A stretch of 64,000 bases of DNA. Source: Pelomonas sp. Root1217. Lineage in GTDB: Bacteria; Pseudomonadota; Gammaproteobacteria; Burkholderiales; Burkholderiaceae_C. Shown here in pieces: positions 596-34,985 of this stretch. Position numbers and translations under genes: made by a program. The notes beneath the pieces are model-generated. The model was not told the origin of the DNA, ran no database searches, and saw only the letters and a list, made by a program, of their open reading frames with translations. The stretch lies in contig NZ_LMDC01000012.1 in assembly GCF_001425705.1 (NCBI RefSeq), positions 3,402-67,401 on the forward strand, read 5' to 3'. Numbering within the stretch: position 1 is the first letter of the stretch; each line of letters begins with the position of its first letter.

Positions 596-1246
596 TCAAG
601 GTGCTTTCGCGTAGGCCGCCATGAACACCCGCACCGCCTCGCGCAGCAGTGCTCTGTCTTCCCGCGCGTCGGGCATGTCGAGCATCAACAACCCGCGGAT
701 GTGGCCGTCGCCAAGGAACATGGACAGGAACAGATCCGCCGCCTGGCGCGGGTGCCGGATGTTCAGCGCGCCCTGCGCATCGGCGCGGCGCAGATAGGCC
801 GCCAGGTCGCCGATCAGCCGGTCGGCCCCCTGCCTGTAAAAGGCCAGGCAGGCCTCGCGCTGCACCGCGGCGGCGCCATAGATCGAACGAAACTTGCCCA
901 GCACTTCCTCCTCGCGCGCGAGCGCCAGGAACTGCTCTCCGACGGCCAGCAAAGCCTTCTGAGGCTGCGTCGGGTCCAGCGCTTCGACGCCAGCGACCCC
1001 GCCCATGACGCGGTCGGTGCGATCGCGAATCACCGCCTCGAACAGCCCCTCCTTCGAACCGAAGTGGCTGTAGATGGTCATCTTCGAGACACCGGCCTCG
1101 GCGGCGATGGCATCGACGCTGGCCCGCTCCAGACCGTGCGCGTTGAAGTGGCTGTGCGCCGCTTCCACGATGCGCCGCAAGCGCTCGGGGTCGCGCGGCC
1201 GGCCGCGACGCGGTGGGGACTCGACTGGCTTCTCGTTTTCGGGCAT
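596..1246 (-). CDS. TetR/AcrR-family transcriptional regulator
   Basis: A 216-residue one-domain repressor. The N-terminal HTH (about residues 20-70) reads ILEAA-like, then VDAIAAEAGVSKMTIYSHFG, the classic TetR recognition helix. The C-terminal part resembles the AefR-like ligand-binding class. It is divergent from an RND efflux operon and separated from it by only 67 bp. That gap holds a near-perfect inverted repeat overlapping the predicted pump promoter. By analogy with AcrR-type regulators it probably represses both itself and the pump and is relieved by a pump substrate. The inducer cannot be inferred from sequence. Confidence 0.9.
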   Translation of the reverse strand: MPENEKPVESPPRRGRPRDPERLRRIVEAAHSHFNAHGLERASVDAIAAEAGVSKMTIYSHFGSKEGLFEAVIRDRTDRVMGGVAGVEALDPTQPQKALLAVGEQFLALAREEEVLGKFRSIYGAAAVQREACLAFYRQGADRLIGDLAAYLRRADAQGALNIRHPRQAADLFLSMFLGDGHIRGLLMLDMPDAREDRALLREAVRVFMAAYAKAP

Positions 1247-1257
1247 CGCCGTCTTTG

Positions 1258-1309
1258 TGTACTTGACAGTCCACTATATGCCAATATACTTATTGGACGC
1301 TCAAGTACA
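1258..1309. promoter_or_regulatory. operator/promoter region between tetR and the RND operon
   Basis: TGTACTTGACAGTCCA (1258-1273) and TGGACGCTCAAGTACA (1294-1309) are inverted copies with two mismatches. The left arm contains TTGACA (1264-1269), and TATACT at 1285-1290 could be the -10, although the 15-bp spacer is short. The right arm ends 4 bp before the outer-membrane factor ATG. The arrangement fits repressor binding that occludes both divergent promoters. Confidence 0.6.
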
Positions 1310-1313
1310 GTAT

Positions 1314-2810
1314 ATGAAGACCGTCACAACACCCGCCACGTACGGCGATCGCCACCCCGGCGCCCGACCGACCCGCCTCGTCTCGGCCGCCGCGGCGCTG
1401 ACGATCCTGTCGGCCTGCTCGGCACCGCCCGTGCAACCGTCGACGCCTTCGGTGCCGCTATCCGCGGCATTCGCGCAGGCCGGGTCGGCCGCCGCCGCTG
1501 CCCAGGCCTTCGATGGCGCCTGGTGGGCCGGCTACGGCGATCCGGTGCTGACAGCGCTGGTCGAAGCGTCCTTGGCTGCCAACCAGGATGTGGCGATCGC
1601 GCTGCAACGCGTTGCCCAGGCCCGCGCCGGCCGCGATGCCGCGGCCTCTCGTCTGTGGCCCACGGTGGGCGTGCAGGCCTTCGCCTCGCACAGCGGCAGT
1701 GGGCTGCCTCAAGCCGTGAAGCAAGGCATGCCCGACACGCGTGCGCTGCGCGCCGGTGTCGACGTGGCCTGGGAGATCGATCTCGCCGGCGGTGTGCGTG
1801 CGGCACGCGACGCGGCGCAGGCTGATGCAGGCGCAGCAGCGGCGGGTGTCCAGGGCGCGCGGCTGCTGGTGGCCAGCGAGGTGGCGCGGCAGTACTTCGT
1901 GCTGCGTAGCGCCGAGGAGCGTCTGCGCATCGTGCAGGCTCTGGCGGCGGCCCAGCGCGAAACGGCGGCGCGCGTCGCCAGCCGCCTGCGCGAAGGCGAG
2001 GCCAGTGCCTTTGACCTGGATCGCGCGCGCGCCGAAGCCGGGGCGCTCGACGCGCAAGTGCCGCCGTTGCGGACGCTGGTGGGCACGTCGCAGACGCGGC
2101 TGGCCGTGCTGCTGGGCCGCAACCCGTCGGCCCGCGTCGTCGACGAGAACGCAGGCTTTGCCTGGCCTGCCGTGCGCGAGATCGGCGCCGGGCAGCCCAG
2201 CGAATTGCTGCGGCGCCGCCCCGACCTGATCGCTGCCGAGTCGCGCGTTGCCGCAGAGACGTTGCGCGGCGCCGAAGCGCGAGCCCAATACTGGCCCAAG
2301 CTTTTTCTGAGTGCCTTGTTCGGCCGCGAGGACCTGCGGCTGAATGCACTCGACCTCGCGCCGGTGCATTTTTCGAACGTCGCGCTGGCCTTTGCCATGC
2401 CGGTCTTCAACGCCGGCCGCATCGACGCGGGCATCCGCGCGCAGTCGGCACGGGCCGACGAGGCGCTGCTGGTGTGGCAGAAGGCGGTGCTGGTCGCCGT
2501 GCAGGAGGTCGAGGACAGCCTGCTCGTGCGCACCCAGGAGGCCGAGCGAGCGGCTGCGTTGAGCAGCACGGTCGATCACCGCCGCCGCTCGCTGCAGCGC
2601 GCGCAATCGCTGCAGCGTGAAGGACAGATCGACCTGCTGGTGCTGCTCGACGTGCAGCGATCGGTGCTGTCCAGCGAGCTCACCCTGGCGGACAGCCGCC
2701 TGCACCAGGTGCTGGCCGACGTGCAGCTCTACAAGGCCCTGGGTGGCGGTCTCGAGCCGACCCGTGCCGGCAGTGCCATGACTTACTTCGCCGAGAGGGC
2801 ATCCCAGTGA
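1314..2810 (+). CDS. RND efflux outer-membrane factor lipoprotein (NodT/OprM type)
   Basis: About 498 residues, the usual length for the TolC-like NodT family that forms the trans-outer-membrane duct of tripartite pumps. The signal peptide ends in a lipobox (ILSAC, Cys about residue 35), so it is lipid-anchored. Two OEP repeats follow, with the family-typical LRRRPDLIAAE segment mid-protein. The ATG at 1314 was chosen because it gives the lipobox leader. No Shine-Dalgarno is visible, since the operator arm ends 4 bp upstream, so translation may be leaderless or start slightly downstream. It is the first gene of the operon and overlaps the adaptor by 4 bp. Confidence 0.9.
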   Translation: MKTVTTPATYGDRHPGARPTRLVSAAAALTILSACSAPPVQPSTPSVPLSAAFAQAGSAAAAAQAFDGAWWAGYGDPVLTALVEASLAANQDVAIALQRVAQARAGRDAAASRLWPTVGVQAFASHSGSGLPQAVKQGMPDTRALRAGVDVAWEIDLAGGVRAARDAAQADAGAAAAGVQGARLLVASEVARQYFVLRSAEERLRIVQALAAAQRETAARVASRLREGEASAFDLDRARAEAGALDAQVPPLRTLVGTSQTRLAVLLGRNPSARVVDENAGFAWPAVREIGAGQPSELLRRRPDLIAAESRVAAETLRGAEARAQYWPKLFLSALFGREDLRLNALDLAPVHFSNVALAFAMPVFNAGRIDAGIRAQSARADEALLVWQKAVLVAVQEVEDSLLVRTQEAERAAALSSTVDHRRRSLQRAQSLQREGQIDLLVLLDVQRSVLSSELTLADSRLHQVLADVQLYKALGGGLEPTRAGSAMTYFAERASQ

Positions 2811-3919
2811 ACAGAATTTTCTTCGCCGTATCCCTCGTGGCCGTGGCCGGCTGCAGCGCCCCGCCCGCACCGGTCGCCGCCGCCAAGCCGGTCTTCGTCA
2901 CCACCGTGAGCCCCGCCGTGTCGGCGCAGACCCGCAGCTTCACCGCCGTGGTCCGCGCCCGTGTCGAGACGGAGCTGGGTTTTCGCACCGGCGGCAAGGT
3001 GGTGGATAGGCTCGTCGAGGTGGGCGACACCGTGAAGGCCGGCCAGGCGCTGGCGCGGCTGGACCCGGCGGACTATCAACTGGCCGTGAGTGCCGCCGCC
3101 AATCAGGTCCAGGCCGCGTCGGTGGATGCGCAGCAGGCCGCGTCCGACGAAGCGCGCTTGCGCCGCCTGCTGGCCGACGGCTCCGTGGGCGCTGCCGACC
3201 ACGAGCGCCAGAAAGCGCGTGCCGACGCGGCCGCCGCCCGGCTCGAACAGGCGCGCCGCCAGCTCGACCTGGCAGGCAATCGCGAGGGCTACGCGACGCT
3301 GGTGGCACCCTATGCCGGCGTGGTCACGGCGCTGCGCTTCGAGCGCGGCCAGGTGGTGGCCGAGGGCCAGCCAGTGCTGTCGCTGGCCCGCGACGGCGAA
3401 CGCGAGATCGTTGCCGAACTGCCCGAGGCCTGGGTCGGCCGGGTGCGCGCGCTCACCGCCACGGCCACGCCCTGGCAGGACGCCAAGTCACCCTTGAGGC
3501 TGGTGCTGCGCGAGCTCTCGCCGCTGGCCAGTGCGCAGGGCCGGACTTTCCGCGTGCGCTACGCCGCGGCGCCGGAATCGCGCGCGCAGGTCGGCGCGCT
3601 GCCACTGGGCAGCACCATGCAGCTGAACCTGTCCGGGCAAGCGACCGGGCCGGCGACCACCGCCGTGCCGGTCACCGCGCTGGTGAAGGCCAGCGCGTCC
3701 GCAGGGGTCTGGGTGCTCAACGCCAAGGGCTCCGGGCTGGTGTTCACACCGGTGCAGGTGGTGGCCATGGAGGACGCCCGAGTGCACGTCACCGGCCTGG
3801 CCGGCGGCAGCCGGGTGGTCAGCGTCGGCGCGCAGAAGCTCGATGCCGGCATCACCGTGCGCGCCGTCGAGCGTGCGCCTGAAGCCGGCGCGGCTGTAGT
3901 CGCCAGGAGCGGGTCATGA
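2807..3919 (+). CDS. RND efflux periplasmic adaptor (membrane fusion protein)
   Basis: A 370-residue MexA/AcrA-type adaptor starting with GTG inside the GTGA overlap with the outer-membrane factor. The N-terminus has a lipobox (VAGC), so it is a lipoprotein anchored in the inner membrane. Next come a lipoyl half-motif (GGKVVDRLVEVGDTVKAGQ), an alpha-helical hairpin rich in Ala/Gln/Arg, the second lipoyl half (APYAGVVTALRFERGQVV) and beta-barrel domains. It bridges the pump and the outer-membrane duct. It is translationally coupled on both sides by 4-bp overlaps. Confidence 0.92.
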   Translation: MNRIFFAVSLVAVAGCSAPPAPVAAAKPVFVTTVSPAVSAQTRSFTAVVRARVETELGFRTGGKVVDRLVEVGDTVKAGQALARLDPADYQLAVSAAANQVQAASVDAQQAASDEARLRRLLADGSVGAADHERQKARADAAAARLEQARRQLDLAGNREGYATLVAPYAGVVTALRFERGQVVAEGQPVLSLARDGEREIVAELPEAWVGRVRALTATATPWQDAKSPLRLVLRELSPLASAQGRTFRVRYAAAPESRAQVGALPLGSTMQLNLSGQATGPATTAVPVTALVKASASAGVWVLNAKGSGLVFTPVQVVAMEDARVHVTGLAGGSRVVSVGAQKLDAGITVRAVERAPEAGAAVVARSGS

Positions 3920-6900
3920 GTCGCTTCAACCCATCGCAATGGGCCGTCACGCACCGGGCCATGGTGCTGTTCCTCATCATCGCCACGCTCATCGTCGGCG
4001 CCTTTTCGTTCAGCAAGCTGGGCCGCCTGGAGGACCCCAGCTTCGACGTGCCGACGATGACGGCCATCGTCGTGTGGCCGGGCGCCACCGCGCAGGAGGT
4101 GCAGGACGAGGTGCTCAACCGCATCGAGCGCCGGCTGCAGGAGCTGGACCATTTCGACTACGTGCGCAGCTTCGCGCGCCAGGGCTACGGCGGTATCACG
4201 CTGTGGATGAAGGGCGGCAGCAGCAAGGCGGAGCTGGAGAACGCCTGGTACCAGGTGCGCAAGAAGATCGGTGACGTGCGCCAGGAGTTCCCAGAAGGCG
4301 TGCGCGGGCCGTTCTTCAACGACGAGTACAACGACCGCTACAGCGTGCTCTACGCGGTGAGCGCGCCCGAGCTGGCCATGGCCGAGCTGTTGACGGTCAC
4401 CGAAGACGTGAAGCGGCGCATCCAGAGTGTGGCCGGCGCCGCCAAGGTCGACGTGCTGGGCAAGCAGGCCGAGCGCGTGTTCGTTGAAATCTCGACGCGG
4501 CGGCTGGCCGCGATGGGCATCGCCCCGACGGCCGTGTTCGACGCGCTGGCGCGGCAGAACCTGGTGGCCCCGGCGGGCTCGGCCGATACCACCCACGACC
4601 GCGTGCAGGTGCGGGTGGACGGCGGCCTGCGCAACGCGGCCGACGTGGCCAACGTGACGCTGGAGGTGGGCGGCCAACTGCTGCGGCTGGCCGACATCGC
4701 GACCGTGCGCACCGGCTACGAAGATCCGCCGAGCATGACCATCCGCCACAACGGCGTGCCGGTGCTGGCCATCGGCGTAACCATGCAGGCCAACGGCAAC
4801 GTGCTGGACTTCGGGCGCGCGCTCGACGAGCGGCTGGCGCAGCTGCGGCAGGAACTCCCGGCGGGCGTGCAGATCCAGCAGTACGCGGACCAGCCGCGCG
4901 TGGTGGCGGAGTCCGTCTGGGAGTTCGAGCGCTCGTTCCTGGAGGCGCTGGCCATCGTGCTGGCCGTGTCCTTCCTGTTCCTGGGCTGGCGCACCGGCAT
5001 CGTGGTGGCCGCGTCGGTACCGCTGGTGCTCGGGCTGGTGGCGGCCGTCATGTACGCCGCCGGCTGGGCGCTGGACCGCATCTCGCTGGGCGCGTTGATC
5101 ATCGCGCTGGGCCTGCTGGTCGACGACGCCATCATCGCGGTGGAGATGATGGTGGTGAAGCTGGAAGAAGGCTGGGACCGCATGCGCGCCGCCACCTACG
5201 CCTACACGTCCACCGCGTTTCCGATGCTGACCGGCACGCTGGTCACGGCAGCCGGCTTCATGCCGGTGGGCTTCGCGAAGTCGATCGCCGGCCAGTACGC
5301 GGGCGGCATCTTCTGGGTCGTCGGCGCGGCGCTGATCCTGTCGTGGGTGGTCGCCGTGGTGTTCACGCCCTACCTTGGCGTGCTGCTGCTGCCGAGGAAT
5401 CTTGCAACCGGCACACACCACGACCCCTACGACCGGCCCGTGTACCGCCGGCTGCGCGGCATCGTCGACTGGGCCGTGCGGCGCCGGGCCTGGGTGCTGG
5501 GCATCACGGTGCTGCTGTTCGCCATCGCTGGTGCCGGCATGCTGGCGGTGCAGCAGCAGTTCTTCCCGACCGCGTCACGGCCCGAACTGCTGGTGGAACT
5601 GCGGCTGCGCGAAGGCGCGTCGTTCGCCGCCACCTCCGCCCAAGTCAAGCTGCTTGAGGCGCGCCTGGCGAAGGACCCGGACATCGAGTTCTTCACCGCC
5701 TACACCGGCGCCGGCACGCCGCGCTTCTATCTGTCCATCCAGCCGGAGCTGCCGAACCCGGGGTTTGCGCAGATCGTCGTCAGGACGGCGGGTACCGAAC
5801 AGCGCGAACGCGTGCGCGCCCGTCTCATGGAGCTGTTCGCCAAGGATGAAGTCCTGCCCGACGTCAACGCCCGCGTGACGCGTCTGGAGTTCGGACCGCC
5901 GGTGGGCTTTCCGGTGCAGTTCCGCGTGATCGGCCCGGACAAGGCGCAGGTGCGCGAGATCGCCTACCGGGTGCGCGACGCGGTGCGCCAGAACCCGCTG
6001 GTGCGCGACACGCAACTGGACTGGAACGAGCAGGTCCGCTCGGTGCAGGTCCACGTCGATCAGGACAAGGCGCGGCTGCTGGGCCTGTCCAGCGCCGACA
6101 TCCAGGGCCTGGTGCAGACCACGCTGGACGGCGCGCCGGTGACGCAAATCCGCCGCGGCGAGGAACTCGTCGACGTGGTCGTGCGGGCGACGCCCGAGGA
6201 GCGCAAGAACATTGGCCAGCTCGGCGACCTGCAACTGTTCACGCGCAGCGGCGTCAACGTGCCCCTGTCCCAGGTGGCGCGCGTCGAGCCGGGTTTCGAG
6301 GAGCCGGTGCTGTGGCGGCGCAACCGCGACATGGCGCTGACGGTGCGCAGCGACGTCGTCGACGGCGCGCAGGGCCCCTACGCCACGGCGCAGATCCGGC
6401 CGTCGCTGCAGCCCATCATCGACAGCCTGCCTGCGGGTTACCGCATCGAGGAAGGCGGCGCCATCGAGGAGAGCGACAAGGCGAACAAGGCGCTGTTCGC
6501 GGTGTTCCCGGCGATGTTCGCGGTGATGCTGACGCTGCTGATGATCCAGCTGCAAAGCTTCTCGCGGCTGTTCATGGTGTTCATGACAGCACCGCTGGCG
6601 CTGATCGGCGTGGTGCCGGCACTGCTGCTCTTCAATGCGCCGTTCGGCTTCGTCGCGCTGCTGGGCGTGATTGCGCTGGGCGGGATGATCATGCGCAACT
6701 CCATCATCCTCGTCGACCAGATCGACCAGGACATCGCACGCGGCGTGGCGCCCTGGGCCGCCATCGTCGATGCCACGGTGCGGCGCTCGCGCCCCGTCGT
6801 GCTGACGGCCGCAGCCGCGGTGCTGGCCATGATCCCGCTGACCCACAGCGTGTTCTGGGGGCCGATGGCCATCTCGATCATGGGCGGCCTGGTCGTGGCC

Positions 6901-7011
6901 ACGGCGCTGACCCTCGTCTTCGTCCCGGCGCTGTACGCCACCTGGTTCCGCGTCCGGCGTGACAGCCCAGCGCGGGCGCCCGACCAGGCACTCATGGGAG
7001 CCAGCGCGTGA
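3916..7011 (+). CDS. RND multidrug efflux permease (HAE1/AcrB type)
   Basis: A 1031-residue inner-membrane proton-driven exporter of the AcrB family, full length. It has TM1 at the N-terminus, a large periplasmic porter loop, TM2-6 with the paired acidic residues of TM4 (GLLVDDAIIAVEM), a second loop, and TM7-12 (GMIMRNSIILVDQID). It starts at the ATGA overlap with the adaptor. With the two upstream genes it forms a complete tripartite pump. The order, outer-membrane factor first, differs from the common adaptor-pump-duct order. Substrate is unknown; drugs, biocides or solvents are typical. Confidence 0.95.
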   Translation: MSRFNPSQWAVTHRAMVLFLIIATLIVGAFSFSKLGRLEDPSFDVPTMTAIVVWPGATAQEVQDEVLNRIERRLQELDHFDYVRSFARQGYGGITLWMKGGSSKAELENAWYQVRKKIGDVRQEFPEGVRGPFFNDEYNDRYSVLYAVSAPELAMAELLTVTEDVKRRIQSVAGAAKVDVLGKQAERVFVEISTRRLAAMGIAPTAVFDALARQNLVAPAGSADTTHDRVQVRVDGGLRNAADVANVTLEVGGQLLRLADIATVRTGYEDPPSMTIRHNGVPVLAIGVTMQANGNVLDFGRALDERLAQLRQELPAGVQIQQYADQPRVVAESVWEFERSFLEALAIVLAVSFLFLGWRTGIVVAASVPLVLGLVAAVMYAAGWALDRISLGALIIALGLLVDDAIIAVEMMVVKLEEGWDRMRAATYAYTSTAFPMLTGTLVTAAGFMPVGFAKSIAGQYAGGIFWVVGAALILSWVVAVVFTPYLGVLLLPRNLATGTHHDPYDRPVYRRLRGIVDWAVRRRAWVLGITVLLFAIAGAGMLAVQQQFFPTASRPELLVELRLREGASFAATSAQVKLLEARLAKDPDIEFFTAYTGAGTPRFYLSIQPELPNPGFAQIVVRTAGTEQRERVRARLMELFAKDEVLPDVNARVTRLEFGPPVGFPVQFRVIGPDKAQVREIAYRVRDAVRQNPLVRDTQLDWNEQVRSVQVHVDQDKARLLGLSSADIQGLVQTTLDGAPVTQIRRGEELVDVVVRATPEERKNIGQLGDLQLFTRSGVNVPLSQVARVEPGFEEPVLWRRNRDMALTVRSDVVDGAQGPYATAQIRPSLQPIIDSLPAGYRIEEGGAIEESDKANKALFAVFPAMFAVMLTLLMIQLQSFSRLFMVFMTAPLALIGVVPALLLFNAPFGFVALLGVIALGGMIMRNSIILVDQIDQDIARGVAPWAAIVDATVRRSRPVVLTAAAAVLAMIPLTHSVFWGPMAISIMGGLVVATALTLVFVPALYATWFRVRRDSPARAPDQALMGASA

Positions 7012-7067
7012 CGGAGCTGCTCCCAGGGCACTGGACCCAGGGCCACTTCGCCGTGGCACGCGTGATG

Positions 7068-7823
7068 TCAGGCGGCGCGCATCGCCTGCTGAGCCAGCAC
7101 CTCGTCCAAGCGCCGATGCGCCGCGCTTTCCCAGGCGATGGGCAGCTGGTTCTTGGCCTGGAGGTAGTGATGCGTGAAGACACCCAGGTACGCGTCAAGC
7201 GTCTTGCCGGCGACCTCGTCACCCGCCAGGCTCAGGCACTGCGCGGCCACCTCGCTGGTGCAGAAATGGTCGCTGCAACGTGAGCGGCGCAACCTGTATT
7301 GCGAGGCCTCGGCGGGCACCAGGCTGAGCACGGGCATGTGGTTCAGGTAGGGGCTTCGGCTGAACATCTTGCGTGCCTCGGACCAGGTGCCGTCCAGCAG
7401 GATGAACAACGGGCGCTTGGTCGCGCCGTCCCGGCCTGCTGTGCGCGGCTGAATGGCATGCACCACACGCTCCGGCGTGGCGTACTGGCCCGGGAAGACG
7501 ACGTAGGGATCCCAGGCCGGCTCGCTCAACAGGGCGAGCAGCGCTGGGTCGGGTTCGGTTCGCGACCAGCCGAAGGCGAAGGTGTCCGCGACGGTATCCG
7601 CGATCAGCCAACCGGTGTTGGTGGGCTTCAGCGGCTCGATGTCGGCCATCAGCAGGCACACCGCTGCGCGCGTGTTCACCGACGGGCGCAAGGCGCACAT
7701 GCAGTGCGTGGAGACCAGCCGGCAGCCTTCGCAGCGCTCGCGCTTGAAACCGCCGCGAGCCGAGAACGGCTTGGTGGCACTCGCCAGGCGCGCGGCGCGC
7801 AGAAGGGATACGGCATGAGACAT
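7068..7823 (-). CDS. DTW-domain tRNA-uridine aminocarboxypropyltransferase (TapT/YfiP-like)
   Basis: A 251-residue protein with an N-terminal Cys cluster (CEGCRLVSTHCMC) and the signature DGTW within LFILLDGTWSEARKMF. The family uses S-adenosylmethionine to attach the 3-amino-3-carboxypropyl group that makes acp3U in tRNA. E. coli TapT is of similar length. The start at 7823 (MSHAVSLL) was preferred over an upstream ATG at 7922, which would add 33 poorly conserved-looking residues. It is convergent with the RND pump gene. Confidence 0.85.
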   Translation of the reverse strand: MSHAVSLLRAARLASATKPFSARGGFKRERCEGCRLVSTHCMCALRPSVNTRAAVCLLMADIEPLKPTNTGWLIADTVADTFAFGWSRTEPDPALLALLSEPAWDPYVVFPGQYATPERVVHAIQPRTAGRDGATKRPLFILLDGTWSEARKMFSRSPYLNHMPVLSLVPAEASQYRLRRSRCSDHFCTSEVAAQCLSLAGDEVAGKTLDAYLGVFTHHYLQAKNQLPIAWESAAHRRLDEVLAQQAMRAA

Positions 7824-8002
7824 GCGCGGATTGTCGGAGCACTGCTCATCCAAACGGATGCCCCCATCCCATCCGTCTGTCGGCTGTGCAACCAAGGTGG
7901 CGCTTCCTAGACTGCCCTGCAACGAGTGGATTGCGAGCTGGCCAAAGCCGTTGACGCGGCGGATGGGCGGCCAGCCCGATCCCAGTTGACAGGGAGATTT
8001 CC

Positions 8003-10108
8003 ATGCTGACTTCCTCGATTTCGCGTATCGGGAGGCGCCTTGCCGCGCTGCTGGCGCTGACCGGGGCCGCGCTGTGCTGCCCCGCCCCCGCGCTGGCCCA
8101 CAACGACGGCGCCTACTGGCACGACTCCGGGCCTGCGGCGCACAACCCCCAGTGGATGCTGACCCTCGGCGCCACGAAGAAGCTCACCGAGCTGTCCCTG
8201 CCGGGTACGCATGACAGCGGAACCTTCCACGGTGTGGGCGGCCCCATCGCGCAGACGCAGACCATGACCATCCGGGAGCAGCTGGATTCGGGCATCCGAT
8301 ACCTGGACATCCGGCTCAAGTACTACGACCTCCTTGCGCTTCAAGACTGCAACCAGTACTACCAATCGCCGAACTGCGCGCTGCTGGTGTTTCACGGCGG
8401 TGTCGACATGTTCCTACCTTTCAAAAGCGGCGTACTGCAGCCGACCGTCGCCTTCCTGAAAAGCAACCCGTCGGAACTGGTCATCATGAGCGTCGTCATG
8501 GAGACGGCCGACTGCAAATGCGACCCAGCGCCTGCGCTCGACGCATTGCTGGACCAACCCGCCGTCATCGATGGCGTGGCCACAGGTCAAAAGTATGCGG
8601 ACTATCTGCTGCCCGCCACTTGCCCGGGTCCGGCCACATTGACCTTGGGCCCGGTGCCCCCGCTCAATTCGAAACCCGATCCGAACTCGTGTGACGCACG
8701 CGGCAAGGTCCTGCTGACCCACCAATACATGGGTCCGTTGTCCACCCGCCACTACTACCGGCCCATCGTTTCGATGGGATACACGGCCGTGCTGTTCGAC
8801 AAACTCCGCAGCAATCTGGACCTCTATCACCGACTCTGGCTGCCCGTCAAAAGCCATCTGGCAGACGCAGCCAATATCACCGGCACGAACGCCCTCTACT
8901 ACGTTGGCAGCGGTGGCTCTGACGGCGGGTTTCCCTATTTCTTCGCCAGCGGCCATTCCAGCGCCGAGACGGGTGCCCCGCGCCTGTCGACCGGGCTGGT
9001 GGACGGCGCCAGCGCCGACGCCTCCACCTTTCCCGACTTCCCGCGCACCGCCTGCGCCCTCGGCCTGTGCACCATTTCCTACGAGGGCATGAACACGCTG
9101 ATCGCTGACTACGTGATGCGCCCGGAGTTCCACGTTGCCGGCCGCCGCATCGGCATCATCCGCGCGGACTTCCCAGGGTCGCGCTTCATCACGGCGGTAG
9201 CCAGCGTGAACGCAGGCGTCACCTTCAACCGCCCGACCTTCGGCTACACCCTGGTGACCTCGGACAGCCGGCCCTACACCCCCGGTACCTGGACCAACCG
9301 GCAGGTCGTCATCACGCCCCAGTGCGACGTCGTCTGCATCGGCAATCGAGCGGTCGTGTCGGAGGACACGCCCAACGGCTTCAGCTACACCCTGACGGGC
9401 GGTGGCTACAGCGTCAGCTTCACGACCAGCCCCGTCAGGGTCGACCTGAAGCCGCCGACCATCAAGGCAGCCGCGACGACGCAACCCGGCGCAGCGGGCT
9501 GGTACACCGGCGACGTGGTCGTGCGCTTCACTTGCGCCGACACGGGCGGCTCGGGCGTCGCGGTCTGCCCCGACGACCTGGTCCTGAGCAAGCAGGGCAC
9601 CGTGTCCTCCGGCTCGAAGTACGCCGTCGATGTCGCGGGCAACAAGAGCGACAGCAGCAACATCGTCACGGTCAAGATCGACAAGACACCCCCCGCCGTC
9701 GTCTACCGCGGCAACCTGGGCTCGTACGCGCCGGGGCAGAGCGTCGATATCACGTGCGAGGCCATGGACAAGGAGTCCGGCGTGGCGTCGACCAACTGTG
9801 CCGACATTCGCGGCCTGGCGTCTTCCTTCGGCCCGGGCAGCCACCGCTACAGCGCCATCGCCACCGACGTCGCCGGCAACACGGGCATGGGTGCGGCCAG
9901 CTTCACCGTCGTGGCGTTGCCGGGCGACGTGAACTTCGATGGCGCCATCGACTGCCGCGACCAGGCCGTGGTGAAGACCGCGTTCGGCAAGCGCGCCGGC
10001 ATGCCCGGATTCGACGCGAGAGCGGACGTGAACGGCGACGGCGTCGTCGACATCCGGGACCTGGCGTTCATCGCGCAAAAGCTCCCGGCGGGCACGACCT
10101 GCCCCTGA
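8003..10108 (+). CDS. secreted phosphatidylinositol-specific phospholipase C-like protein with C-terminal dockerin
   Basis: 701 residues with a Sec signal peptide (cleavage near APALA-HN) and a GGGA-type RBS before the ATG at 8003. Residues about 40-400 are a PI-PLC X-like domain. His70 lies in LPGTHDSGTF and His131 in LLVFHGG, the positions of the two catalytic histidines of bacterial PI-PLCs. Two Ig-like segments follow, with repeated VDVAGN/TDVAGN motifs. The last 60 residues are a type I dockerin with two calcium-loop repeats (GDVNFDGAID and DVNGDGVVDIRDL). The next gene encodes a cohesin. It is expected outside the cytoplasm, cleaving phosphatidylinositol or a related glycolipid; the true substrate is not known. 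Confidence 0.85.
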   Translation: MLTSSISRIGRRLAALLALTGAALCCPAPALAHNDGAYWHDSGPAAHNPQWMLTLGATKKLTELSLPGTHDSGTFHGVGGPIAQTQTMTIREQLDSGIRYLDIRLKYYDLLALQDCNQYYQSPNCALLVFHGGVDMFLPFKSGVLQPTVAFLKSNPSELVIMSVVMETADCKCDPAPALDALLDQPAVIDGVATGQKYADYLLPATCPGPATLTLGPVPPLNSKPDPNSCDARGKVLLTHQYMGPLSTRHYYRPIVSMGYTAVLFDKLRSNLDLYHRLWLPVKSHLADAANITGTNALYYVGSGGSDGGFPYFFASGHSSAETGAPRLSTGLVDGASADASTFPDFPRTACALGLCTISYEGMNTLIADYVMRPEFHVAGRRIGIIRADFPGSRFITAVASVNAGVTFNRPTFGYTLVTSDSRPYTPGTWTNRQVVITPQCDVVCIGNRAVVSEDTPNGFSYTLTGGGYSVSFTTSPVRVDLKPPTIKAAATTQPGAAGWYTGDVVVRFTCADTGGSGVAVCPDDLVLSKQGTVSSGSKYAVDVAGNKSDSSNIVTVKIDKTPPAVVYRGNLGSYAPGQSVDITCEAMDKESGVASTNCADIRGLASSFGPGSHRYSAIATDVAGNTGMGAASFTVVALPGDVNFDGAIDCRDQAVVKTAFGKRAGMPGFDARADVNGDGVVDIRDLAFIAQKLPAGTTCP

Positions 10109-10148
10109 GCGACCGTCAACGAACTGCATTCCATCCAAGGAGAAAGAA

Positions 10149-10736
10149 ATGACGAAACTGACTTGCCTGTGCGGGATGGTGCTGGCAATGCTGGCAGCGC
10201 CCGTGTCGGCGACGACCCTGTCCTTCGCTGCCCCCGCGCCTGCAGTGCAGGTGGGCGACACCTTCACGCTGGACGTACTCGTTGCGGATGCCCCGGACCT
10301 GTACGCCTTCCAGTTCGACATCGCCTTCGACCCGGCGATCGTCCAGGCCAACACGGTGCAGGAAGGGGACTTCCTATCCGCCGGCGGCCGGGCGACGTTC
10401 TTCCTGCCCGGCACCATCGACAACAGCGCCGGCACGGTGTCATTCACGGCCAACACCCTGGCCGGTCCCGGCCCGGGCGTCAGCGGCGACGGCCTCATCG
10501 TGCACCTGTCGTTCCACGCACTGGCAGCAGGGCAAAGCAGCCTGTCGTTCGGGAATGTCGTGCTGCTCGATTCGGCACTGATGGAGGTCGCCACGACGCA
10601 CATGGCTGGGGCCATCAGCGTTGCCAGCGTGCCGGAGCCGGCGTCCGTTGCCCTGTTCGGCATCGGGCTGGCCGTCCTCACGGCGGGCGCTCGGCGGCGG
10701 GGGCGGCACACGTTGCCGAATCCAGACCGAACCTGA
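10149..10736 (+). CDS. cohesin-domain protein with PEP-CTERM sorting signal
   Basis: 195 residues: a signal peptide ending PVSA, then one cohesin domain (about residues 25-160) with the typical VGDTFTLDVLV strand and YAFQFDIAFDPAIV. It ends in SVPEPASVALFGIGLAVL followed by an Arg-rich tail, a textbook PEP-CTERM exosortase signal. It sits 40 bp downstream of the dockerin-bearing phospholipase with an AAGGAGAAAG ribosome-binding site. The likely role is to hold the dockerin enzyme at the cell surface or in the extracellular matrix. The pairing is inferred from domain logic and adjacency, not shown. Confidence 0.85.
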   Translation: MTKLTCLCGMVLAMLAAPVSATTLSFAAPAPAVQVGDTFTLDVLVADAPDLYAFQFDIAFDPAIVQANTVQEGDFLSAGGRATFFLPGTIDNSAGTVSFTANTLAGPGPGVSGDGLIVHLSFHALAAGQSSLSFGNVVLLDSALMEVATTHMAGAISVASVPEPASVALFGIGLAVLTAGARRRGRHTLPNPDRT

Positions 10737-10771
10737 CCCGAACGCCGCGTTTGACGGCATGATGGCGCGGC

Positions 10772-11398
10772 ATGACCGCGCCATTGCACCTCCTTATCGT
10801 CGACGACCACCCTGTCGTTCGGGTCGGCATGGCGCAGCTGCTGCGCACGCAGCGCGAGGGCTGCGAGGTGAGCGAAGCCGACAGCCTGCCCGCCGCGCAA
10901 GCACTGCTGGCACGCCGGCCCGACGTGGCCCTCGTCGTGCTCGACGTGCACCTGCCTGGACTCGCGCCGTTGCAGGCCCTCCAGCAGCTGCGCGCCGAGT
11001 GGCCGCTGCTGCCGGTGCTGCTGATGTCGGCCGACAGCGACCCGCTGCTGGCCATGCGCGCCCTCGACGAGGGCGCCGCTGGCTGGCTTCCCAAGAGCGC
11101 CGACGTGGGTGTACTGTTCGGCGCGCTGGAGCTGGTGCTGGCCGGCGGCTGCTACCTGCCGCCCTTCCTGCTGCAGCGCAGCGCCGAGCTGCCTGAAGAG
11201 GCGCTCACGCAGCGTCAGGCCGAGGTGCTGGCGGAACTCGTGAAGGGCCGTAGCAACAAGGAGATCGCACGGGAGCTGGGCATGGGCGAGCCGACGGTCA
11301 AGGGTCATCTGGTGACGATCTTTCGCATCCTGCGCGTGCGCAACCGCGCCGAAGCCGCACTGGCCGGGCAGGCGCGGCTGGCGTCAATGCGCTTCTGA
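10772..11398 (+). CDS. LuxR/FixJ-family response regulator
   Basis: 208 residues: an N-terminal receiver with acidic pocket DDH and phospho-acceptor Asp58 (VVLDVHLPG), then a C-terminal LuxR HTH (LTQRQAEVLAELVKGRSNKE). It is a DNA-binding output partner, most likely of the hybrid kinase that converges on it, since the two genes overlap by 15 bp at their 3' ends. Targets are unknown. The neighbouring cohesin gene ends 35 bp upstream on the same strand, so read-through transcription is possible. Confidence 0.9.
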   Translation: MTAPLHLLIVDDHPVVRVGMAQLLRTQREGCEVSEADSLPAAQALLARRPDVALVVLDVHLPGLAPLQALQQLRAEWPLLPVLLMSADSDPLLAMRALDEGAAGWLPKSADVGVLFGALELVLAGGCYLPPFLLQRSAELPEEALTQRQAEVLAELVKGRSNKEIARELGMGEPTVKGHLVTIFRILRVRNRAEAALAGQARLASMRF

Positions 11399-13114
11399 AG
11401 GCGGTTCCGAGGGCGCGCTGAGCCAGGCGCGCAGCGCCGCCGCCGGCAGTGGCTTGCGCGCCGGCTGCACGCGCAATGCACGCAGGGCCTTCGCGCTCAT
11501 CGGCAGGGTCTCGCCGCTGATCAGCAGGGCGGGCAGCCTGTCGCCGAAGGCCTCGCGCAAGGCCTCGATGGCACTCAGCCCGTCGCCTTCCGCGAGCCGC
11601 CAGTCGCTGATGAGGCGCTGCGGCCGGGCACCGGCCGCGCGCAGGCGCGCCAGCAGCGGCGCCACCGCAGCTTCGGCCCAGACCTCGCAGCCCCAGGTGC
11701 GCAGCAACGTCACCGTGGCCTCGCGCACCGCTTCGTCGTCCTCCACCAGCGCCACGCAGCGGCCCTGCAGCGGCTGGCCCTGCGGTACGGTGCGAGGCTC
11801 GGTCAGCAGGCGGGGCTCATCCTCGGGCAGGCTCACGGCGAAGCAGCTGCCGTGCCCCAGGCGGCTGCGCAGGTCCACGGGGTGGTCCAGCAGCCGGGCC
11901 AGCCGCGCGACGATGGCCAGGCCCAGGCCGTGGCCCCGGCGCCGGTCGCGCCCCGGGTTGGCGAGCTGCACGAACTCCTGAAAGATGCGCTCGTGGTGCT
12001 CGGGCGCGATACCCGGGCCGGTGTCCCAGACGGCAATCTGCACACGGCCGCCGCGCCGCCGCGCCGCCAGCAGCACGCCGCCATGCAAGGTGTGCGTGAG
12101 CGCGTTGGACAGCAGGTTGCGCAGCAGGCGTTCGAGCTGCTGCGCGTCGCTGCGCACCCACAGCGGGGTCGGGCGCAGCCGCCACTGCAAGCCCTTGGCT
12201 TCGGCCAGCACGGCGTATTCGGTGGAGAGGCGCTCGAACAGGGGCTGCAGCGGCAGCGAGCGGCACTGCGGCTGCAGTGCGCCGCTGTCCAGGCGCGACA
12301 CGTCGAGCAGGTTCTCCACCAGCCCGTCAAGCGCCTGCGCCATGGCCTGCAGCTGCTCCGCCGTCTGCGCTGCACGCCGGCCCTGCAGCTCGTGCGCGGC
12401 CTGTGCGGCCAGCAGGCCCAACGCATGCACGGGCTGGCGCAGATCATGGCTGGCGGCGGCCAGGAAGCGCGTCTGCGCTTCGCGCGCCGCCTGGGCCTGG
12501 GCCAGCAAGGCCTCGCGCTCGAAGCGCAGCGCGTGGCTCTCGCGCAGCAGCCGGGTGTGGCGCAGCGTCAAGGCCATCGCCAGGGCCACGGCCGACAGCA
12601 CCAGCAAGGCGTTGTAGGCGCCGCCCCAGCTGCCGAGCGACAGGAAGAGCGCGATCAATGCCACGGCGACGGGCCCGAGCAGCATCACGAAGGCGCGCGG
12701 TTGCGGCGCCATCACGTTGATGCTGGCCACGCAGGTGACGCAGGCCAGCATGCCGGCATACATCTGTGTGGCGCCCTGCCGTGCGTCAAATGCCATCACC
12801 AGCGCCAGCGCCCAGAGCCCACCGGTGAGCAGTGCGCCCAGCTCGGCGCGGCGCTCCCACGGTGCGGGGTCCGCGGCCTCGGGCAACTGCGCCACCTGGC
12901 GCTTCCACAGCATGCGCAGCACGATCAGCGCTGCAAACGCCGCGCCCCAGGTCAGCAGCGCCGGCAGCGCCACCCGGTCGATCTGCGTGCCCACATGCAG
13001 CAGCACCAGCAGCGCCGCCGCCACCAGGCTCACGCCGCTCTGGGCGTAGAACAACAGCAGCATCGCGCGGCGCGTACGTTCGTCCTGGGGGTGGGGCAGC
13101 ATGCCCCGCATCAT
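11384..13114 (-). CDS. hybrid sensor histidine kinase with C-terminal receiver
   Basis: 576 residues. About six transmembrane helices occupy the first 190 residues with little periplasmic sequence, suggesting sensing within or at the membrane. A short coiled coil leads to HisKA with the phospho-His in AAASHDLRQP. The HATPase domain has N-box LLRNLLSNALTHT, then DTGPGIAP and GHGLGLAIV. The C-terminal receiver has Asp in LISDWRLAEGDG. Its probable partner is the convergent LuxR-type regulator. The internal receiver may act as a phosphate sink or phosphatase control. Confidence 0.9.
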   Translation of the reverse strand: MMRGMLPHPQDERTRRAMLLLFYAQSGVSLVAAALLVLLHVGTQIDRVALPALLTWGAAFAALIVLRMLWKRQVAQLPEAADPAPWERRAELGALLTGGLWALALVMAFDARQGATQMYAGMLACVTCVASINVMAPQPRAFVMLLGPVAVALIALFLSLGSWGGAYNALLVLSAVALAMALTLRHTRLLRESHALRFEREALLAQAQAAREAQTRFLAAASHDLRQPVHALGLLAAQAAHELQGRRAAQTAEQLQAMAQALDGLVENLLDVSRLDSGALQPQCRSLPLQPLFERLSTEYAVLAEAKGLQWRLRPTPLWVRSDAQQLERLLRNLLSNALTHTLHGGVLLAARRRGGRVQIAVWDTGPGIAPEHHERIFQEFVQLANPGRDRRRGHGLGLAIVARLARLLDHPVDLRSRLGHGSCFAVSLPEDEPRLLTEPRTVPQGQPLQGRCVALVEDDEAVREATVTLLRTWGCEVWAEAAVAPLLARLRAAGARPQRLISDWRLAEGDGLSAIEALREAFGDRLPALLISGETLPMSAKALRALRVQPARKPLPAAALRAWLSAPSEPPSEAH

Positions 13115-34206: not shown

Positions 34207-34812
34207 TCAGGGCGCCGTGCGGCGCCTGCGCAGCCAGCCGGCCAGCGCGCCACCACCGGCGAGTGCCAGCCAGCCGGACGCCGGCTCGGGCACGGCAGTG
34301 ACCGACACGTTGTCGATCAGCCCGCCGTACTGGTCGGACACGCCCAGCGCGTCAAAGCGCAGCAACGCGCTGCCGCTTTGCCCTAAGTCCACGGTGGCCG
34401 AGAAATGCTGCCACTGCGTCGTCGAGCCGCCGGCCACGTTGTCCAGCAGCGTGCCCGACAGCGAACCGAGGCTGTAGCCCAGCGTGTTCGAGCCCGCCGC
34501 CACATTGGTCCGCGGCGAGTACCAGAAGCTCAGCTCGACCCAGCCCGTCGCGGTGATCGTCTGGCTCATCGCGCTGTTGCCGAAGGTGTCCAGCTCGACG
34601 TGATAGAGGCCGTCCTGGGAGACGTTGCCCTCGAAGTTGTTCTGCACCTCGATGTCCGGCGCGCCGACCCAGCCGGTCAGCGTCGGCACGATCAGCCAGT
34701 TGCCCGGGTTGGCCGCATCGGCCTCGAAGCTACCGTTGACGACCAGGTTGGGTCCGGCGGCAAAGGCGGGCGCCAGGGCCAGGACAAGGACGGCGGCGGC
34801 GATGGTTTTCAT
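34207..34812 (-). CDS. PEP-CTERM sorting-domain protein
   Basis: 201 residues with a signal peptide ending in AFAAG and a CBM/DUF642-like beta-sandwich opening LVVNGSFEADAANPGNW. It ends in AVPEPASGWLALAGGG followed by an RRRR tail, the exosortase recognition signal. It is expected to be exported and anchored or released into the matrix. Its opening motif suggests carbohydrate binding. A GGGGAAG ribosome-binding site precedes the ATG. It is the second PEP-CTERM substrate in the window; no exosortase gene is present here. Confidence 0.85.
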   Translation of the reverse strand: MKTIAAAVLVLALAPAFAAGPNLVVNGSFEADAANPGNWLIVPTLTGWVGAPDIEVQNNFEGNVSQDGLYHVELDTFGNSAMSQTITATGWVELSFWYSPRTNVAAGSNTLGYSLGSLSGTLLDNVAGGSTTQWQHFSATVDLGQSGSALLRFDALGVSDQYGGLIDNVSVTAVPEPASGWLALAGGGALAGWLRRRRTAP

Positions 34813-34985
34813 GGGCTTCCCCTGAAATGACCCGCGGGAGTCTAGGCAGGAGGGGCCGTCGGCACCCTCCCTATGAACGCATTCGCCAAGGGCTCATGCG
34901 GCCGACTCATAAGCCCATTGGGAGAACGCGCGTGGCCTGTCGCAAAGCCTAGGACAATTGCGCCACCCCTTTCTCGTCGCCTGCC

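Follow-up and report, generated by a model that had tools for sequence, protein, structure and literature searches.

Background

Cellulosomes, known from Clostridia and Ruminococcus, combine a scaffoldin carrying several cohesins with several dockerin-bearing enzymes for plant polysaccharides. For PEP-CTERM proteins, passages of Haft et al. 2006 (PMC1569441) propose that they are cleaved and then directed to the outer membrane or across it, and state that most come from single-gene operons. Floc formation is linked to a PEP-CTERM protein in passages of Xia et al. 2023 (PMC9850573), and those of a paper on anaerobic methanotrophic (ANME) archaea (PMC5244752) describe genomes in which dockerin, cohesin, and archaeosortase/exosortase domains are abundant, with a role in adhesion offered as speculation. 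In this study, a 64,000-nucleotide stretch of DNA from Pelomonas sp. Root1217 (contig NZ_LMDC01000012.1, positions 3,402 to 67,401, forward strand), referred to here as the window, was analysed for two adjacent genes, one for a protein resembling phosphatidylinositol-specific phospholipase C (PI-PLC, or PLC) and ending in a dockerin, the other for a single-cohesin protein ending in a PEP-CTERM signal.

The pair resembles the cellulosome in having, by Pfam, a cohesin and a dockerin with a duplicated Ca-binding loop; the dockerin matches solved dockerins, and the modelled cohesin of a relative (locus L076) matches cellulosomal cohesins. In contrast to the scaffoldin with its several cohesins and to the several dockerin-bearing enzymes of a cellulosome, the pair comprises the sole Pfam cohesin and the sole Pfam dockerin found in the whole source genome (6.65 Mb, 99.7% complete). 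The unit also differs in its exosortase-type tail and in the partners found in relatives, where GH10 is accompanied by such types as proteases, lipase-like proteins, and an amidase. Because there is no multi-cohesin scaffold and only a single dockerin, the unit is regarded, by the features tested, as belonging to the families of cohesins, dockerins, and PEP-CTERM proteins and not as a cellulosome.

The likeness to PEP-CTERM/exosortase systems consists of a PEP-CTERM match above cut-offs, following a signal peptide recognized by eye, and of two exosortases in the source genome, typed as XrtA and XrtB above NCBI cut-offs; the genome had 72 PEP-CTERM matches. Unlike usual PEP-CTERM proteins, the sorted protein of the window resembles an adaptor for docking that is accompanied by a partner gene. 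The same domain set is shared with the ANME archaea, whereas the passages of that paper give domain counts and paired adaptor-enzyme genes are not among them. The terms "cohesin" and "dockerin" are absent from the main text of Haft et al. 2006. In open-licence PubMed Central, no paper was found that brings cohesin or dockerin together with PEP-CTERM, and one may exist in print elsewhere; the ANME paper was the only one found for dockerin with exosortase, and nothing was found for cohesin, dockerin, phospholipase, and non-cellulosomal together. The locus appears to represent a real, conserved docking unit that joins two known parts; no description of this combination was found.

The two genes and their products

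Coordinates are those of the window, on the + strand unless stated. The first gene (8003-10108) encodes a 701-residue protein with a signal peptide (residues 1-32, 8003-8098, read by eye from the translation), a PI-PLC-like domain, an Ig-like region scoring below cut-offs, and a C-terminal dockerin. The catalytic N-terminal half of the PI-PLC domain (residues 48-165, 8144-8497) matched PDB entry 1aod by phmmer with an E-value of 1.9e-13; a profile of the five orthologs matched the same structure at 3.6e-16, and the remaining barrel was matched weakly. Residues H70, D71, R104, and H131, invariant in the five orthologs, align with the catalytic residues of Bacillus PI-PLC, which we take to be His32, Asp33, Arg69, and His82. 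No PI-PLC model matched at E ≤ 1 in a Pfam scan of the protein, and an AlphaFold model of the domain, made from an alignment of five close orthologs, had a mean confidence (pLDDT) of 33.7, unusable for judging a TIM-barrel fold; the lipase assignment therefore rests on sequence similarity. The protein is probably a PI-PLC relative with the catalytic His/Asp/Arg/His set, and may have lipase activity. It resembles the bacterial PI-PLCs (PDB 1aod and 2or2) over residues 48-165 and in the aligned catalytic residues, and differs from them in its long C-terminal extension, formed by the Ig-like region and the dockerin, and in its environmental Gram-negative host.

The dockerin (residues 640-694, 9920-10084) scored 42.4 bits against Pfam Dockerin_1 (PF00404; cut-off 22.9). 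Its duplicated Ca-binding loop-helix motif was above the cut-off, with the loops at residues 642-653 and 675-686, and the loop Asp/Asn residues were unchanged across the five orthologs. The label "type I" is the name of the Pfam family; the nearest PDB sequence, 2y3n_B, belongs to an entry titled as a type II cohesin-dockerin.

The second gene (10149-10736) starts 40 bp downstream on the same strand, preceded by an AAGGAG ribosome-binding site recognized by eye (10137-10142), and encodes 195 residues. A signal peptide (residues 1-21, by eye) is followed by a cohesin domain (residues 31-157, 10239-10619; Pfam PF00963, 44.6 bits, cut-off 24.1) and a PEP-CTERM sorting signal made up of the PEP motif, a hydrophobic stretch, and RRR (residues 160-184, 10626-10700; Pfam, 26.3 bits, cut-off 20.7). 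TIGR02595 also matched (22.1 bits, cut-off 16), and no equivalog scored above cut-off in an NCBIfam scan of this protein. Among eight cohesin relatives scanned with NCBIfam, only that of L074 exceeded the subfamily model NF038126, and barely. The window has a second PEP-CTERM protein (34210-34893, - strand), which lacks a Pfam cohesin.

Conservation of the pair and survey of the family

A full-length PLC-dockerin protein was present in 5 of 20 genomes of the genus, with identities of 100, 98, 95, 76, and 75%, and in all five the cohesin-PEP gene adjoined it. At four loci the relatives came from Pelomonas sp. Root1237 (98%), a Burkholderiales metagenome-assembled genome (95%), Roseateles caseinilyticus P7 (75%), and Pelomonas sp. 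Root405 (74%). The initial annotation, made from the letters alone, had named a PI-PLC-like enzyme ending in a dockerin and, 40 bp downstream, a single cohesin with a PEP-CTERM tail; the dockerin, the cohesin, and the tail held in profile searches against curated cut-offs, the adjacency proved conserved, and exosortases were located in the genome.

Across 399 genomes of the family, searched with the Pfam cohesin and dockerin models at E ≤ 0.001, cohesin was found in 43 and dockerin in 68. The 55 cohesin places (two below cut-off) fell into open reading frames (ORFs) shorter than 700 residues (29), ORFs of 700-1100 residues (20), and giants (6). Nineteen of the 29 short ones lay within 5.5 kb of a Pfam dockerin, against 0.07 expected under random placement, and a PEP-CTERM-like tail was seen in all 22 first read. 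Seven of the other ten neighbour a dockerin detected by a custom hidden Markov model (HMM; L091, L092, L108, L109, L193, L195, and L196). Two doubtful members remain counted among the 29, a secretin fragment in G334 (L039) and a contig fragment without a PEP tail in G163 (L197). For the short cohesin of G056 (L194), neither Pfam nor the custom HMM found a neighbouring dockerin.

None of the 20 cohesins in ORFs of 700-1100 residues was near a Pfam dockerin. All 15 of these that were scanned, with 5 of the 20 unread, are Secretins (PF00263) with a C-terminal cohesin; this class was kept apart, and the idea that cohesin hits occur everywhere was set aside. The secretin-cohesin loci are L015:1-1887, L033:1411-3291, L021, L024, L025, L027, L028, L030-L032, L034, L036, L037, L040, and L042. 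Dockerin and cohesin also occur next to each other within single ORFs of 2508 to 12971 residues (G587:C1:6590-7180, G587:C64:45519-46001, and G318:C2:2578-3090), and such giants are possibly self-associating adhesins.

Counted from the dockerin side, there were 88 rows, of which 15 in giant ORFs (14 unfetched) and 12 with partial Dockerin_1 matches were left out. The remaining 61 were full-profile matches in ORFs of at most 1600 residues, two loci contributing two rows each, and 36 of them had a cohesin with a terminal PEP motif within 5 kb, a count made with a custom cohesin HMM (E < 1e-5) trained partly on the same loci. A fairer test set consisted of 18 loci chosen by dockerin alone, with no Pfam cohesin nearby (L093-L107 and L110-L112). 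An adjacent cohesin-PEP gene was found by HMM in 10 of these, a weak cohesin-like gene without terminal PEP in 3, and none in 5; L105 is the weak one among the ten, where Pfam sees PEP-CTERM alone.

Cohesin-like proteins of about 320-400 residues also lie near dockerin genes, as at L106:8134-9102 and L099:668-1732, with similar ORFs at L107, L154, L155, and L190. Their PEP-CTERM match is internal (residues 194-214 of 323 in L106 and 210-232 of 355 in L099), followed by at least 100 residues; the ORF of L154 had no Pfam match at all.

Enzyme types and matched groups of cohesins and dockerins

Forty-nine neighbouring pairs were assembled from cohesins (E < 1e-9) with a terminal PEP motif and the nearest dockerin in the locus. 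By BLAST, their enzyme parts formed 13 clusters of 12, 10, 7, 6, 5, and 2 members plus seven singletons, and the Pfam types given here were read on members of these 13 sets, not on all 49 proteins. They include peptidase C25 (L074 and L156), M12B reprolysin-like (L085), GH10 (L083), M20 (L075), metallophosphoesterase (L103), PKD (L078), penicillin amidase (L092), the metallo-beta-lactamase fold (L108 and L189), glucose/sorbosone dehydrogenase (L094), IgGFc-binding-like (L112), and RHS/PKD (L193). In the set of six, L077 gave a weak propeller match below cut-off, and L162 gave dockerin and EF-hand only. The PLC pair of the window is thus, as judged from these matches, one case of a widespread two-gene unit with many enzyme types. 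The initial annotation had seen a minimal pair that holds a phospholipase; the minimal dockerin/cohesin pair stands, and because the unit is widespread with many enzymes, the phospholipase is its variable part.

Distances among the cohesins and among the dockerins of the 49 pairs were correlated (r = 0.84; largest value in 2000 permutations, 0.17), and the correlation remained at 0.76 when limited to pairs of different enzyme class. When both sets were partitioned into three, four, and five clusters, the adjusted Rand index (ARI) was 0.90, 0.925, and 0.91, respectively, the best of 1000 permutations at four clusters being 0.18. The FastTree tree of cohesins contained clades A (25 members), B (13), and C (10), with support of 0.81, 0.999, and 0.76; the dockerin tree recovered the same three (0.83, 0.96, and 0.88), apart from a single stray, the dockerin of L078, which fell within A. 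Group A includes PLC-like, M12B, GH10, M20, and penicillin amidase enzymes and one metallo-beta-lactamase-fold protein; group B consists of C25 plus one glucose/sorbosone dehydrogenase, and group C of the rest except L078.

Seven genomes have several pairs (16 pairs in all). In G183 and G387 all pairs belong to group A, the stray L078 aside, and the other five (G078, G195, G269, G297, and G390) mix groups, every cohesin falling in the group of its own neighbour. Since mixed-group genomes keep each cohesin in its neighbour's group, species descent alone does not explain the match. By sequence comparison, plug and socket have evidently stayed matched to each other, whereas in relatives other hydrolases have taken the place of the enzyme.

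Group-A dockerins share a further feature. All 25 contain two Cys, and no more, within the final 72 residues, at a spacing of 49, a figure that is partly circular as cluster membership was drawn from dockerin identity; the spread over unrelated enzymes is not circular. One Cys is in the first Ca loop and the other at or near the very end, and the pair is kept in L092 and L108 despite an eroded-looking first loop. In the window they correspond to Cys651 (9953-9955) and Cys700 (10100-10102), which may form a disulfide clasp.

Exosortases, wider distribution, and a structural model

Eighty genomes were searched for exosortases (PF09721). One was present in 40 of 42 pair-bearing genomes, counting G288 and G350 with weak-scoring cohesins, in 11 of 15 with a dockerin but without a neighbouring terminal-PEP cohesin, and, among sampled genomes of the family that lie outside the genus and gave no dockerin match, in 6 of 15. 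Pairs go with exosortases, and exosortases are common without pairs.

At the level of the order, dockerin was found in 21 and cohesin in 43 of 250 genomes. Outside the family, adjacent cohesin-PEP pairs were read in G453 and G587, the other order-level places not having been fetched systematically, and in G413 the cohesin match was very weak and the tail a variant one. A class-wide profile search matched at least 91 of 274 genomes, many by the tail only, as the profile includes the PEP tail. Of 19 places followed at this level, 10 had, by eye, a cohesin-like gene beside a dockerin gene. The tails were PEP in L245, L250, and L253, VPLPA- or VPIP-like in L240, L241, L247, and L251, and less clear in L243, L244, and L254. 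Three more loci (L248, L256, and L258) had a dockerin match in another arrangement; in L242, L246, L249, L252, L255, and L257 no dockerin was seen by eye, VPLP- or VPVP-like tails being present in L246, L249, and L252. A tail type that changed while the docking pair was kept would fit exosortase sorting. In L247:1-2827, one VPIP-tailed cohesin gene is flanked on both sides by dockerin genes, the product of one being a subtilase, which raises the question of one socket with two plugs.

In L076 the dockerin and cohesin genes are in one frame; the TGA was read as Ser, and the dockerin end, linker, and cohesin were folded as one chain, from an alignment that had misplaced ends. The model had a mean pLDDT of 77.9 and a predicted TM-score (pTM) of 0.57, with ten-residue blocks mostly at 88-97 in the cohesin and 79-90 in the dockerin. 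Against solved cohesins, Foldseek placed the cohesin half closest to 6kgc_A (E 5.7e-6). As neither coordinates nor interface scores were at hand, the model supports the cohesin fold and not docking.

Flanking genes and upstream region

A LuxR-type response regulator gene (10772-11398; Pfam) starts 35 bp past the cohesin gene, and a hybrid histidine kinase gene (11384-13114, - strand; Pfam) converges on it. Both are kept beside the four other orthologous loci, where the kinase is 88-95% identical. Of the 20 genus genomes, 5 contained the regulator at E ≤ 1e-60, exactly those with the full-length PLC-dockerin gene, a pattern that shared descent of a clade could also give.

Upstream of the pair is a conserved block (7845-7924), a candidate operator or promoter, with the palindrome CATCC-N4-GGATG at 7847-7860 and a second half-site. 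The core of the block, with the palindrome CATCCAAACGGATG, was invariant in all five aligned orthologous upstream regions, whose flanks vary, and the pattern CATCCRWNNGGATG occurred in 13 of 263 loci examined, all copies of the PLC region. With one mismatch allowed, the palindrome had 4 matches in the window against 2.2 expected, so that only the conserved copy stands out. A sigma-54 promoter, a type reported for PEP-CTERM genes, was considered and rejected: the best site in 410 upstream bases had 8 of 10 specified bases, and 73 of 500 shuffles reached at least 8. A sigma-70 scan of 7800-11450 found no promoter.

Further upstream (1074-7922) are an RND-type efflux operon, with an outer-membrane factor and a fusion protein recognized by eye and an AcrB-type pump by Pfam, and a DTW-domain gene; the pump and DTW genes adjoin the pair in Pelomonas sp. 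Root1237 too.

Discussion

The domains, their pairing, their co-divergence, and the co-occurrence with exosortases are apparent from the sequences. We consider it probable that an exosortase sorts the monocohesin protein as an adaptor, which docks the enzyme of the neighbouring gene at the cell surface or in exopolysaccharide (EPS). Both proteins would exit the cytoplasm via their signal peptides. Following the published model, XrtA or XrtB would recognize and process the PEP-CTERM segment, sorting the cohesin protein to the cell surface or the EPS matrix. The Ca2+-binding dockerin of the enzyme would plug into the neighbour cohesin, as family relationship, pairing, and co-divergence suggest, and the docked PI-PLC-like enzyme would stay with the producer cell and not diffuse away. 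As a guess, the co-inherited two-component system may regulate the pair through the conserved upstream palindrome.

Several points weigh against this reading. Binding between cohesin and dockerin in the pair is inferred, with no published account of it found, the co-folded L076 model is no evidence of docking, and the published passages leave unsettled where PEP-CTERM proteins finally reside. At two clusters the ARI was 0.222, no better than the best permutation. Of the 61 dockerin rows, 20 had no neighbouring cohesin, 4 had a cohesin-like protein lacking terminal PEP, and 1 was unfetched; some of the 20 resemble EF-hand repeats rather than dockerins, and the training set of the HMM behind the cohesin calls included part of these loci. 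A dockerin protein and an exosortase without a neighbouring cohesin were found in G119, G282, and G344, and cohesins with a sorting-type tail but no nearby dockerin in G056 (L194), L246, and L249. No exosortase was detected in pair-bearing G655 (83% complete) and G587 (95%), and one was present in all 8 genus non-carriers tested, so that its presence is not specific. The dockerin proteins of G119, G344, and G282 (L104, L157, and L158) are about 990 residues long, with the dockerin C-terminal and N-termini that resemble the GH10 set by eye.

The initial annotation had the enzyme tethered to the surface by a PEP-CTERM anchor. The tail and the exosortases are there; PEP-CTERM, however, is a sorting signal that an exosortase presumably cleaves, and not a proven anchor, so "surface-tethered" could equally be EPS-held. 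In such a variant, to which we give somewhat less than an even chance, the cohesin-PEP protein would be released into exopolysaccharide after processing and enzymes would be retained in the biofilm matrix and not in the envelope. This would agree with the proposal, in passages of PMC1569441, that PEP-CTERM proteins pass through the outer membrane and contribute to extracellular material, and with the effect of PepA of Aquincola on bound versus soluble EPS in passages of PMC9850573, while the sequence itself favours neither matrix nor envelope.

Two departures from docking outside the cell appear less probable. The dockerin might be mainly a Ca2+-dependent cap for folding or stabilization, with the cohesin as a periplasmic chaperone or inhibitor and tethering incidental; neighbour pairing and co-divergence would look alike, and the Cys pair of group A suggests a rigid cap. 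We nevertheless regard this as improbable, as a chaperone would not need the PEP-CTERM-like tail seen in each of the first 22 short-ORF cohesins examined, and tails resembling PEP or VPLPA stand beside dockerins outside the order too. It is still harder to believe that the genes are adjacent for unrelated reasons and that the dockerin binds another partner, such as the cohesin-like domain of a secretin. Secretin-cohesin fusions (PF00263 plus PF00963) do occur in related genomes, but the source genome has no further Pfam cohesin, the 20 cohesins of the longer ORF class all lie away from dockerins, and the grouping of cohesins agrees with that of dockerins regardless of enzyme type.

Beyond docking of the PLC by its neighbour, a broader proposal, which we hold to be evenly balanced, is that the exosortase/PEP-CTERM pathway partly serves to install docking adaptors. 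Exchangeable enzymes would be carried on sorted monocohesins in at least three plug-socket groups, one of them disulfide-clasped, as an independent non-cellulosomal branch in Burkholderiales and, with PEP or VPLPA tails, elsewhere in the class.

Non-cellulosomal cohesin and dockerin domains, and PEP-CTERM proteins in general, have lacked clear function. A conserved two-gene pair with an assayable enzyme makes both questions directly testable in a Gram-negative bacterium. The recurrence of the unit with differing enzymes points to a general strategy by which such bacteria could retain enzymes outside the cell. If the binding is true, the pairs would also be compact tools, perhaps with separate specificities, for keeping enzymes attached to Gram-negative cells.

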